From Chitinophaga sp. MM2321 (GTDB lineage: Bacteria > Bacteroidota > Bacteroidia > Chitinophagales > Chitinophagaceae), in NCBI RefSeq assembly GCF_964033635.1, contig NZ_OZ035533.1:5208001-5272000 (forward strand): a DNA stretch of 64,000 nt. The letters are read 5' to 3'. Below the pieces are notes generated by a model, which was not told where the DNA came from, ran no database searches, and saw only the letters and a list, made by a program, of their open reading frames with translations. Within the stretch, counting starts at the first letter, position 1. Each line of letters opens with the position of its first letter. Below are positions 23,265 to 26,128 of this stretch, piece by piece. A program made the translations under genes and the position numbers.

Positions 23265-23738
23265 ATGATGAGCAATTCAATTGATGCAAAGTACGAGGCG
23301 TCTCTTGCCAGAAGGCCCAATAGCCTCGCACGCCTGCTAAACCTCCTTAAAAAAGATGTGGACCTCCGCCTCATAGAAAAGATCCAGGAACGTGGATACA
23401 TCAATTTTAAGCTGGGAGAAATGGTGTTACTGGTAAATATAGACGCCCAGGGCACCATCAATAATGAACTGGCCAAAAAGGCCCGTATCAGCAAACAAGC
23501 CATGAGTAAGGTGGTGAAAAGCCTGGAGGCAGCAGGTTATATCAGTACCCGCAAACACGATACAGACAATCGCGCCAGTATCATTTTCCTGACAGAAAAA
23601 GGAAAGGAGCTGATGATCAATGCATCAGATGCGGTAGAAGAAATTCATGCCCGTTATACAGCCATGATCGGGGAAGAAGATATGTTACAGCTGAAGCGCA
23701 TCATGGCAAAACTGTATAACAGCCTGGATGAAAAGTAA
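23265..23738 (+). CDS. MarR family transcriptional regulator
   Basis: 157-residue winged-helix repressor-like protein. The DNA-binding part has NNELAKKARISKQAMSKVVKSLE (helix-turn-helix, about 68-90) and the wing YISTRKHDTDNRASIIFLTEKG with the family aspartate and arginine. Flanking helices form the dimer interface. Start may be the first or second Met (23265 or 23268). It converges end-to-end with the FecR gene (stops adjacent). The 216 bp before it contain no recognised element, and its target is unknown. Confidence 0.88.
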   Translation: MMSNSIDAKYEASLARRPNSLARLLNLLKKDVDLRLIEKIQERGYINFKLGEMVLLVNIDAQGTINNELAKKARISKQAMSKVVKSLEAAGYISTRKHDTDNRASIIFLTEKGKELMINASDAVEEIHARYTAMIGEEDMLQLKRIMAKLYNSLDEK

Positions 23739-24707
23739 TTATTTCAAGGTTACATAATACGCATTGGTACTGTCTTTAACGATATATACCAACAAGCTTT
23801 TCTGCAACTGCGCTATCATTTCTTTTTCAGATTTCGTCCTGAAATCAACGGTCAGCTTTTTCTTATACAGCTTCCTGGCAGCAGACGGCGGCACATGGAT
23901 ATCAATGGAATAGTAGCCGCTTACCGCATCCAGTACTTCTTCCAGCGGCACGTTCCTGAAACGGAGGGCGCCTGTTCTCCAGGCCAGCGGCGCCTGGCTT
24001 TTCAGCAGTTGCGTTTTCAACGGTTGTGCATCAGCAAGCTTTCCCTGCATGTTGGTGGAAAGCACCGTTTCCTTTCCATCCTCCTTTACGATTGTCAGCT
24101 TTCCCCGTGCAACAAAAACGCCGGTGGTTGTTTTTGTTTTATGAACGTTGAAAGCAGCGCCTGTAGCCAGCAGGATGTTTTGCGAATCGGCCGTTACCCT
24201 GCAAGCCGATTGCTGCTTCAGATCAAAATATACATCTCCGGCCAATACCGCTATCTCATGATCATTCTCCGGCCGTACACCATGAGAGATAATCGCATTT
24301 TTATTCAGCACAACCTTGCTGCCATCAGCCAGCAGGAAGGAATCAAGATGATCGCTTGTATTGTTGCGCACCGCCATTTTCGGGGGCGCCTGCAGGTGAT
24401 AAAAAGTAATACCGCCCGCTACAAGGATAACAGCAGCCGCTGCTATCCACAACCAGCGGGAATAGGCAGGAAAGCGATGTGTAAAGGGATTGCGGCCACG
24501 GGAAGGGGCACGCTTTTTCAATGTACCGGTTGTGATAACAGCACCCGCATCATCTTTCAACCAGGCTTCCAGCCTGCTTTCCAGATAACGCGATTGAGCT
24601 GGTCCACTAGCTTTCAATACAGCAATTTGTTCCTGTAATACAGGATCTTGCGGTGATTGAATGAAGCGTGTTATCAGCTCATTTATTTCTGGTGAAGGTT
24701 GATCCAT
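23739..24707 (-). CDS. FecR-type anti-sigma factor, orphan
   Basis: 322 residues from the ATG at 24707 (MDQPSPEINELI). A cytoplasmic N-terminal segment of about 85 residues is followed by one membrane helix (WLWIAAAAVILVAGGITFY). The periplasmic FecR domain has SFLLADGSKVVLNKNAIISH, AVLAGDVYFDLK and ATGAAFNVH, and the C-terminal domain of the DUF4974 type has FRNVPLEEVLDAVSGYYSIDI. Such proteins normally relay a TonB-dependent receptor signal to an ECF sigma factor in SusCD loci. No receptor lies here, and the only sigma-like gene nearby is the divergent fusion at 24833. The upstream TTG at 24743 is less likely as a start. Confidence 0.9.
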   Translation of the reverse strand: MDQPSPEINELITRFIQSPQDPVLQEQIAVLKASGPAQSRYLESRLEAWLKDDAGAVITTGTLKKRAPSRGRNPFTHRFPAYSRWLWIAAAAVILVAGGITFYHLQAPPKMAVRNNTSDHLDSFLLADGSKVVLNKNAIISHGVRPENDHEIAVLAGDVYFDLKQQSACRVTADSQNILLATGAAFNVHKTKTTTGVFVARGKLTIVKEDGKETVLSTNMQGKLADAQPLKTQLLKSQAPLAWRTGALRFRNVPLEEVLDAVSGYYSIDIHVPPSAARKLYKKKLTVDFRTKSEKEMIAQLQKSLLVYIVKDSTNAYYVTLK

Positions 24708-24832
24708 AGTGCTGTCCCGTACAATGCTGTAGATGATTTGCAAGATACTTAACTTCGCAAAGAATAAATAATTAGGTCACCTCAGTGAGGTTTAATATTT
24801 TTAATGCAGCGGAACAGGCAAAAACGATAAAT

Positions 24833-26128
24833 ATGTCACCTGAAACTTTGCTAAATAATGACCAGGAATATATTGAGGGATTGCTGCATCATACACCGGT
24901 AGTAATTGAAAATATTTACCAGCGTTTTGCCTCCAAGGAAAAACGTTTCATCCTGCAAAAGAGCGGTACTGTAAAAGACGCAGCTCATATTTTTGAAGAG
25001 GCGCTGATGGATATCTATTTCTACGCCCGCCAGCATACACTAAAAGTAAGCTCTTTTGAACCCTTTCTGCAACTGCTGTGCAAGCGCATCTGGGAGCGGG
25101 AACTGGAACGGCGGGGACAACGTATAGCCGGCATGGAAGCAGAAGAGAATGCCGCCCTTAGCCGCGAAGACCTCCAAGATGTGGAAGATATTCTGAAAGA
25201 AGGCGAAAAAAGAAGACTCGTTTATTACTATTTTCTCCAGTTAAGCGATAGCTGTAAAGAACTCCTCCGCTGGTCACTCACCGACTGTTTACAGGAAGAT
25301 ATTTCCGTAGAAACAAAGATCCCCGTAAAAGATTTACCCGCTAAAAGATGTGATTGCTATAGTATCCTGTTCAATAACCTGGATACGAAACTCAAGACAG
25401 GTAGTCTTTCTGCCGAAGATCTGCGTACCAGCGACTGTTTCCTCGCTGGGCAAATGAATGAAAGTGAAAAGAAAGCCTTTGGTGAACGTATCAAGGCAGA
25501 ACCGGCACTCAACCAGCAGGTGAAACGTTTCGATCTGCTCCGGCAGCTGCTTTCACAAAAGATCTGCAACGACAATGCCCGGGATGAACTGATGCAACAA
25601 CTGTTCTCCCACCGCAACGCCTGGTATACCCTGAAAGGAAGTACGCCAACGCCTATACGCAATTTCGTGATACTGACGGCTATCATTGCAGCAGGGTTGG
25701 CGATCATGTTATATGTAAGCCCGTGGCGGAAAAATATTTACCGCCAGTTTGCCTCCACAGAAATGCAGATCCCTGACATCGATAGCCTGCAAGTGCCTGA
25801 TGAAGCCATCAGCCAGTTCAATCACGGACATTTCGATAATGCAGTGGTTGTACTCAACAAAACCCTCCAGGCAAATCCCGGCAACCTCTACGCACGGTAT
25901 TACCGCGGCGTGGCCCTGATAGACCTGAACCAGCAGCAGCCTGCACGCACAGACCTGGCCGTTGTTTACAACAACAGCACCGACCTCCGTTATGAAGCCG
26001 CGTTTTACATGGCATTAAGCTATCTGAAAGAAGGACATAAGCAGGAGTGCCTGGACTGGTTGATGAAAATTCCTCCGGGCGCTGCTAATTATCTCAAAGT
26101 ACAGAAACTGATAGAAGAACTAAAGTGA
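24833..26128 (+). CDS. Sigma-like / anti-sigma-like / transmembrane / TPR fusion protein
   Basis: 431 residues from the ATG at 24833 (a GTG at 24785 is in frame but less likely). Residues about 14-95 resemble sigma-70 region 2 of Bacteroidota ECF factors (QKSGTVKDAAHIFEEAL, LLCKRIWERELERRG). About 122-190 resemble region 4 (LVYYYFLQLSDSCKELLRWSL) with a degenerate recognition helix. About 196-245 (SDCFLAGQMNESEKKAFGER, EPALNQQVKRFDLLRQLL) match the compact cytoplasmic helical module of anti-sigma factors. One membrane helix lies at about 277-294 (FVILTAIIAAGLAIMLY), then TPR-like repeats to the end (ALIDLNQQQPARTDLA, AAFYMALSYLKEGHKQECL). It looks like a membrane-held sigma factor carrying its own inhibitor and a periplasmic TPR sensor. 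Loss of sigma activity is an alternative. Confidence 0.75.
   Translation: MSPETLLNNDQEYIEGLLHHTPVVIENIYQRFASKEKRFILQKSGTVKDAAHIFEEALMDIYFYARQHTLKVSSFEPFLQLLCKRIWERELERRGQRIAGMEAEENAALSREDLQDVEDILKEGEKRRLVYYYFLQLSDSCKELLRWSLTDCLQEDISVETKIPVKDLPAKRCDCYSILFNNLDTKLKTGSLSAEDLRTSDCFLAGQMNESEKKAFGERIKAEPALNQQVKRFDLLRQLLSQKICNDNARDELMQQLFSHRNAWYTLKGSTPTPIRNFVILTAIIAAGLAIMLYVSPWRKNIYRQFASTEMQIPDIDSLQVPDEAISQFNHGHFDNAVVVLNKTLQANPGNLYARYYRGVALIDLNQQQPARTDLAVVYNNSTDLRYEAAFYMALSYLKEGHKQECLDWLMKIPPGAANYLKVQKLIEELK

Follow-up and report, generated by a model that had tools for sequence, protein, structure and literature searches.

The window, a stretch of 64,000 bp at C1:5208001-5272000 of the single-contig 6.78-Mb genome of Chitinophaga sp. 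MM2321, contains one open reading frame encoding a sigma-like part, an anti-sigma-like part, a membrane helix and tetratricopeptide repeats (TPRs), with an ATG at position 24833 and a stop codon ending at 26128. An alternative GTG start 16 codons upstream keeps the frame open in the window; the 24833 ATG was the aligned start in 14 of 14 window-like fused loci in the upstream alignment. The features of the locus, in window positions and residues of the fused protein, are listed below; split sigma factors are those encoded by separate genes in relatives.

23265..23738, plus strand: gene of a MarR-family regulator, a neighbour in most relatives read (locus comparison)
23739..24743, minus strand: orphan FecR-type anti-sigma gene, divergent from the fused gene (PF04773, E 2e-6)
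24788..24807, plus strand: conserved A/T-rich block (GGTTTAATATTTTTAAT-type) upstream of window-like fused genes, a candidate promoter that may replace the ECF-type one (upstream alignment)
24833..26128, plus strand: fused pseudo-sigma/anti-sigma-like/membrane/TPR gene, 431 aa plus stop (single ORF, full-length homologues, purifying selection)
24863..25111, plus strand: sigma region 2-like domain, residues 11-93, four helices (selection, AlphaFold helices, profile-profile comparison)
24986..24997, plus strand: altered region 2.2 signature, residues 52-55, H-I-F-E versus D-I-F-Q in split sigma factors (aligned to SigH, SigW and SigL)
25247..25393, plus strand: sigma region 4-like domain, residues 139-187 (alignment, model helices)
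25325..25366, plus strand: degenerate recognition helix, residues 165-178; the Y-x-Y-x-RKKK invariant in split sigma factors is gone and residues 171-172 are often still K/R (alignment)
25412..25624, plus strand: anti-sigma-like helical domain, residues 194-264 (homology to separate anti-sigma/TPR proteins; model helices 194-264)
25649..25717, plus strand: predicted membrane helix, residues 273-295 (hydrophobic stretch, matching model helix)
25775..26125, plus strand: TPR domain, residues 315-431, presumed periplasmic

The AlphaFold model of the fused protein (mean pLDDT 87.3, pTM 0.60) contained helices fitting sigma2, sigma4, a four-helix anti-sigma-like part, the membrane helix and the TPRs; the sigma4 shape may be borrowed, because split sigma factors sat in the alignment of this model. 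It was confirmed that one chain joins ECF sigma-derived regions 2 and 4, an anti-sigma-like domain, one membrane helix and TPRs, with a predicted cytoplasmic/periplasmic topology. This order of domains, with a degenerate region 4 and a single membrane helix, had been proposed in the original prediction made from the sequence alone, and the scans, the alignment and the model bore it out.

The profile search of 79 Chitinophaga genomes, counted at E ≤ 1e-20 (weaker copies may be missed, and kinship among the genomes inflates all counts), found the full fusion as one open frame in 34 of them. A compact fusion without region 4 and the anti-sigma domain, comprising query residues 1 to about 122 plus about 247-431 (324-326 aa long at the five loci that were read; AlphaFold mean pLDDT 81.7, pTM 0.46), was present in 21 genomes, none of the 79 having both forms. 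Two adjacent halves (splitA, about residues 3-194 and 191-431) were detected in 13 genomes and were two ORFs in the nine read, overlapping by 16 nt in different frames in 9/9 operons when the longest ORFs were taken. A second, paralogous two-gene copy (splitB) occurred in 15 genomes, 12 fused and 3 compact, among them the window's own genome, where it lies about 62 kb away. These two-gene operons support the proposal that proteins separate in relatives had been fused. The original prediction had held that a stop codon lying consistently between the sigma and TPR parts in homologues would mark an artefact; the fused ORF is not a sequencing artefact, because 34/79 genomes carry it as one open frame, and the split copies (13 split-only, 15 splitB) form a separate state.

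Of the remaining genomes, five had the C-half sequence only, five had neither half and one (G121) was ambiguous. The C-half-only genomes (G005, G009, G012, G025 and G070), in which the anti-sigma/TPR half is complete or partial, gave no sigma-half match, and at the four such loci read (L072-L075, from G005, G012, G025 and G009) a search for the sigma gene produced short chance-level matches only. The L074 locus keeps just the membrane/TPR part of the anti-sigma/TPR gene, with no detectable sigma gene, and at L073 the anti-sigma/TPR gene begins 8 nt after a MarR-like ORF. A search of 5.8 billion proteins gave 43 full-length fused proteins including the window's own, the others being 38-75% identical to it, and a second search brought the total to 45. 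All fused homologues with an organism name were from Chitinophaga; no fusion was found in other genera among the matches listed or in 395 sampled genomes of the class (E ≤ 1e-12, at most four candidates scored per genome).

The sigma origin of the N-half was hardly visible in the fused protein itself. A Pfam scan revealed no sigma model at E ≤ 10 and TPR-type families only, TPR matches having E values of 5e-6 to 6e-5, and TIGR02937 did not match. The best NCBIfam sigma match was Sig70_bacteroi1 (E 0.008, residues 26-163), far under the cut-off, and the match to the anti-sigma model NF052375 was weak (E 0.016). The fused gene was missing from the 105 Pfam region 2 matches of its own genome, and neither PHROGs nor PADLOC gave a match for its product. 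Foldseek searches against the PDB with whole-protein models of the fused and compact proteins, and a VIA search with the fused model, were dominated by TPR and other repeat proteins and thus bear on the TPR half. As no Pfam sigma model detects the fused protein, profile-based counts of sigma factors can miss such proteins. As a separate observation, sigma region 2 matches at C1:81426, 4051738 and 4295120 of the same genome lie in ORFs 422-449 codons long, which may encode other ECF factors with long extensions.

The relatives gave a clearer picture. The split N-halves matched TIGR02937 with E 1e-14 (L002) and 7e-16 (L039) and Pfam region 2 above the cut-off, and the split C-halves matched NF052375 with E 4e-9 (L002) and 2e-8 (L039), below the curated cut-off, as well as TPR models; judged by these matches, the split partners are a real ECF sigma factor and an anti-sigma factor. 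In hhalign, the 45 fused N-halves aligned to 141 split relatives with a probability of 100 (E 1e-48) and to 26 other ECF factors of the window's own genome (taken from its best 30 region 2 matches, four being excluded because of their length or because they gave no match) with a probability of 96.5 (E 9e-10, 168 columns). A split-sigma profile (A2, 13 rows, the window being one of them) found sigma-H (6e-12), SigW (3e-9) and RpoE (2e-6) among the PDB sequences and aligned to sigma-H, SigW and SigL through the D-x-x-Q-E of region 2.2. The profile built from fused proteins only (A1) found no sigma factor among the PDB sequences up to E 1 and, because A2 did, homology was rested on the intermediates and on hhalign. 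The sigma ancestry of the N-half thus appears weak from its own sequence and firm through its relatives; the similarity to regions 2 and 4 expected in the original prediction failed in the Pfam scan and at the NCBIfam cut-off, and held in the profile-profile comparison with the 26 ECF factors.

Residues were counted in 45 fused proteins, 20 compact proteins and 141 split sigma factors, the latter being 120 listed of 1543 plus 21 weaker ones, with two start variants of one protein among them and 15 other proteins dropped. In region 2.2, D52 was present in 141/141 split, 0/45 fused (40 H, 4 Y and 1 R) and 1/20 compact sequences and Q55 in 141/141 split sequences but in none of the 45 fused or 20 compact ones, all of which have E; one of the 31 split sigma factors of a wider set compared earlier has H for Q at residue 55. 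The 26 other ECF factors of the window's genome had D or E at residue 52 without exception and Q at residue 55 in 23 cases, the other three having H, N and E. It is mainly through the region 2.2 helix that a sigma factor touches the beta-prime coiled coil (PMC4598750). Elsewhere in region 2, N89 fell from 141/141 split to 3/45 fused, E56 was kept in 32/45 fused and K84 and W87 in 45/45, and the median net charge of regions 2.3-2.4 went from +5 to +2. In the recognition helix, Y165, Y167, R169 and K172 were each found in 141/141 split versus 0/45 fused sequences, residue 169 being a proline in 38 of the latter, and the median net charge went from +3 to 0; residue 171 was still K or R in 26/45 and residue 172 in 32/45 (R in 32). 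These changes suggest that the fused sigma half lost its transcription-initiating activity. Separately, C141 and C175 in the region 4-like part were kept in 45/45 fused and 141/141 split sequences despite the degenerate recognition helix.

The promoter was also different. The genus split operons read (9 splitA and 11 splitB) carry an ECF-type site, AT(A/C)NNC-N12-14-TGTTACC, with the core in 20/20 and the bipartite form in 19/20, and the split sigma factor therefore probably autoregulates its own operon. Such a promoter was found in none of the 32 fused loci read (of 34), none of the five compact loci read (of 21) and none of 10 more distant split loci; the bipartite site was also seen at 3/18 sigma loci from other genera (L098, L099 and L102). 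The fused and compact genes share a different, conserved A/T-rich upstream block. An attempt to derive a regulon from the ECF motif was given up, as the search of the window's own genome returned two matches, one being the splitB promoter, and a control pattern also returned two.

The rate of change was estimated as dN/dS (Nei-Gojobori) pooled over 10 non-overlapping close pairs of 32 distinct fused genes. The values were 0.042 for residues 1-100 (region 2), 0.080 for the linker, 0.091 for the region 4-like part, 0.099 for the anti-sigma-like part, 0.069 for the juxtamembrane and membrane segments and 0.087 for the TPRs. The whole fused gene is under purifying selection and its region 2-derived part is the slowest to change; the region 4-like part is not in plain decay, because it is still constrained.

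To follow the history of the locus, the neighbourhoods of 17 wider loci and the window (7 fused, 6 compact and 5 splitA) were compared. On one side, two genes whose products we take from their sequences to be UxuA-like and glycerate kinase-like were found at 5/7 fused and 6/6 compact loci, and the MarR cluster lay near 6/7 fused, 4/6 compact and 5/5 splitA loci. On the opposite side, a 78-aa ORF was present at 48/48 fused and compact loci in a translated search in which some genomes count twice. Four of the five splitA loci had on their far side, as at fused loci, a group with what is presumably an alginate lyase-like gene, with two divergent genes inserted before MarR. By this gene order, splitA occupies the same locus as the fusion in the five loci read and is likely the ancestral form.

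In a maximum-likelihood tree of the C-half (87 rows), the fused and compact proteins fell on one side of a branch (support 97/91), with the splitA and splitB rows outside. The compact proteins were one clade (100/99) within this group, sister to nine fused rows (99/92), and region 4 was scrambled in those of the nine that were aligned. The root is unsure because the outgroup branches are long. The simplest reading is one fusion, followed by the scrambling of region 4 and then by the loss of region 4 and the inhibitor. At the level of compared sequences, it can be regarded as established that the proteins were fused, that the fused forms make up a single clade, that sigma features were lost and that the gene is under selection.

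Candidate partners were sought among the neighbouring genes. The FecR-type gene was present at 27/27 window-like fused loci besides the window, being intact in 25 and broken in two, and at none of five other fused loci (L036, L037, L076, L077 and L080) or seven compact genomes read. The gene immediately upstream of the orphan FecR is the fused gene itself, and the intact FecR genes are constrained (dN/dS 0.067-0.198 in eight pairs). At the two loci with a broken FecR (L009 and L010, from G002 and G004), the adjoining fused gene is intact and the pair has a dN/dS of 0.024, which rules out FecR as an obligatory partner. The splitB anti-sigma factor was likewise ruled out in this role, as splitB occurs in only 12/34 fused and 3/21 compact genomes.

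A gene of the DUF7849 type was present in 28/79 genomes (13/13 split-only, 14/15 with splitB, and G121) and in 0/40 fused or compact genomes without splitB, 0/5 with the C-half only and 0/5 with neither half. It tracks the split sigma factor, and therefore the fusion does not travel with it. Of the two divergent genes at split loci, one encodes a PKD-DUF7619-DUF7849 protein (Pfam matches in L091 and L007) and the other a TPR-CHAT protein (Pfam matches in L091). By cluster, both were present at 5/5 splitA loci, and among the splitB loci read, where locus ends may hide some, the former was seen at 3/4 and the latter at 2/4; over the split loci L090-L097 and L007 together, the counts were 8/9 and 7/9. 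The set of split sigma factor, anti-sigma factor and TPR-CHAT protein is reminiscent of type III-E CRISPR loci, where a sigma factor and an inhibitor likewise occur with a TPR-CHAT protein and this protease acts on a sigma inhibitor (PMC10028731); the parallel applies to the Chitinophaga split operon and does not extend to the fusion. Another, distant ECF sigma gene was noticed in the window's own genome at C1:about 4720800-4722500 (L003, L005 and L006) and in relatives (L068 and L071), where a larger protein follows it. In L068, the one scanned, this protein has both an anti-sigma-like part (NF052375, E 1e-8) and an HtrA-like trypsin domain (PF13365, E 7e-24); inhibitor and protease thus seem to be combined in a single chain.

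The reading that we prefer, with a probability of about 0.6, is that the fused protein is a membrane-anchored pseudo-sigma factor, PhyR-like in its working and probably a protein-binding module, whose partner in the window clade would most likely be another anti-sigma factor. An ECF sigma gene and the adjacent anti-sigma/TPR gene would have fused once, in the ancestor of part of Chitinophaga, and the sigma half would then have lost the core-binding signature, most of the promoter-reading helix and the sigma-type promoter. The region 2 fold would have been retained under strong selection as a cytoplasmic protein-binding module of a protein that crosses the membrane once, and the TPRs may bind or sense something on the far side. 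In the window clade the first candidate among anti-sigma factors would be the orphan FecR alongside, making the fusion a PhyR-like sigma mimic; both this partner and the signal are putative. Several observations count against the reading: H and E in place of D and Q may be a rewired core contact, E55 being found in 1/26 of the other ECF factors, several region 2 positions and residues 171-172 are partly kept, the region 4-like part is still constrained, and FecR, as partner, is broken at two loci with a constrained fused gene and, among the loci read, occurs only in the window-like clade. A more detailed scheme would make the fusion a second, independent case of sigma mimicry, in Bacteroidota and membrane-bound, in which a signal at the periplasmic TPRs alters the in-cis anti-sigma hold and the pseudo-sigma part takes or releases another anti-sigma factor (in the window clade FecR), freeing or restraining a real sigma factor. 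This scheme is tentative and, as a whole, rather doubtful; sigma region 2 genes number roughly 100 in the window's own genome.

The original prediction had seen in the gene, if functional, a membrane-tethered sigma factor with its own inhibitor. A working ECF factor of this kind, held in cis and freed by regulated proteolysis, would share its general plan with Pseudomonas putida IutY, which is cleaved by Prc and RseP (PMC8999054, PMC5411451), and would agree with the constraint on every part of the fused gene. It is nevertheless unlikely, because the region 2.2 residues, most of the region 4 helix and the sigma-type promoter are lost (D52, Q55, Y165, Y167 and R169 in 45/45 fused proteins, the ECF promoter at 32/32 fused loci read) and because region 4 and the inhibitor are gone in the compact sister clade; the lack of co-occurrence with the divergent DUF7849 gene also speaks against it, and this part of the prediction was not supported.

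The strong constraint on region 2, and its survival as the sole sigma part in the compact clade, could also be explained by a protein that binds core RNA polymerase without promoter specificity, the pseudo-region 2 holding the beta-prime clamp and tethering or competing for polymerase at the membrane. The region 2.2 positions that are near-universal in other ECF factors are changed in 45/45 fused proteins, which makes such binding distinctly unlikely. If the function resided in the membrane TPR half alone, with the pseudo-sigma part as a structural leftover, the five genomes that keep the anti-sigma/TPR half without a sigma-half match would be accounted for; region 2, however, changes more slowly than the TPRs (0.042 versus 0.087) and stays when region 4 and the inhibitor are missing, and we regard a mere leftover as very improbable.

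The periplasmic anti-sigma domain of IutY is FecR-like, and no FecR-like periplasmic domain was found in the Pfam scan of the Chitinophaga fused protein, which gave TPR-type families only. The likeness to IutY (ECF243) lies in a cytosolic sigma factor and a membrane anti-sigma factor in one chain with one membrane segment (PMC8999054, PMC5411451). IutY, however, has an active sigma factor and a periplasmic anti-sigma domain and is freed by Prc/RseP, whereas the Chitinophaga fusion has lost the sigma signatures and ends in TPRs. Outside Bacteroidota, a sigma factor fused to a membrane anti-sigma factor is given as shown for IutY and predicted for ECF48/52/53 and ECF36 (PMC8999054); a search of the titles and opening lines of abstracts of open-licence papers found no description of such a fusion in Bacteroidota. 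In ECF42, too, TPRs follow a sigma-like part within a single chain, with no membrane or anti-sigma part in the description of PMC8999054; the Chitinophaga TPR half, in contrast, has its homologue in a separate anti-sigma/TPR protein. The splitA and splitB operons of Chitinophaga have matching domains, splitA at the same locus in the five read, and differ from the fusion in their separate genes, intact sigma signatures and ECF-type promoter. PhyR of the alphaproteobacterial general stress response shares an ECF-like domain with degenerate core- and promoter-binding parts, in Chitinophaga by sequence signature only, and this domain of PhyR has lost the ability to initiate transcription (PMC8103513). 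Whereas PhyR is a response regulator, the Chitinophaga fusion has no receiver domain in the Pfam scan, is predicted to be membrane-bound and carries an anti-sigma-like domain and TPRs.

Most work on sigma factors treats them as functional switches, and PhyR is one clear example of a sigma fold without promoter reading (PMC8103513). The combination of parts described here, together with their graded decay in one genus, seems new. Within Chitinophaga, and at one locus where read, the series runs through an intact two-gene operon, a fusion without the sigma signatures, a fusion with a scrambled region 4, the compact form and the membrane half alone, and it provides material on a sigma fold that no longer reads promoters. 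The series suggests an order in which a sigma factor gives up its functions, region 2 being the part that is kept.
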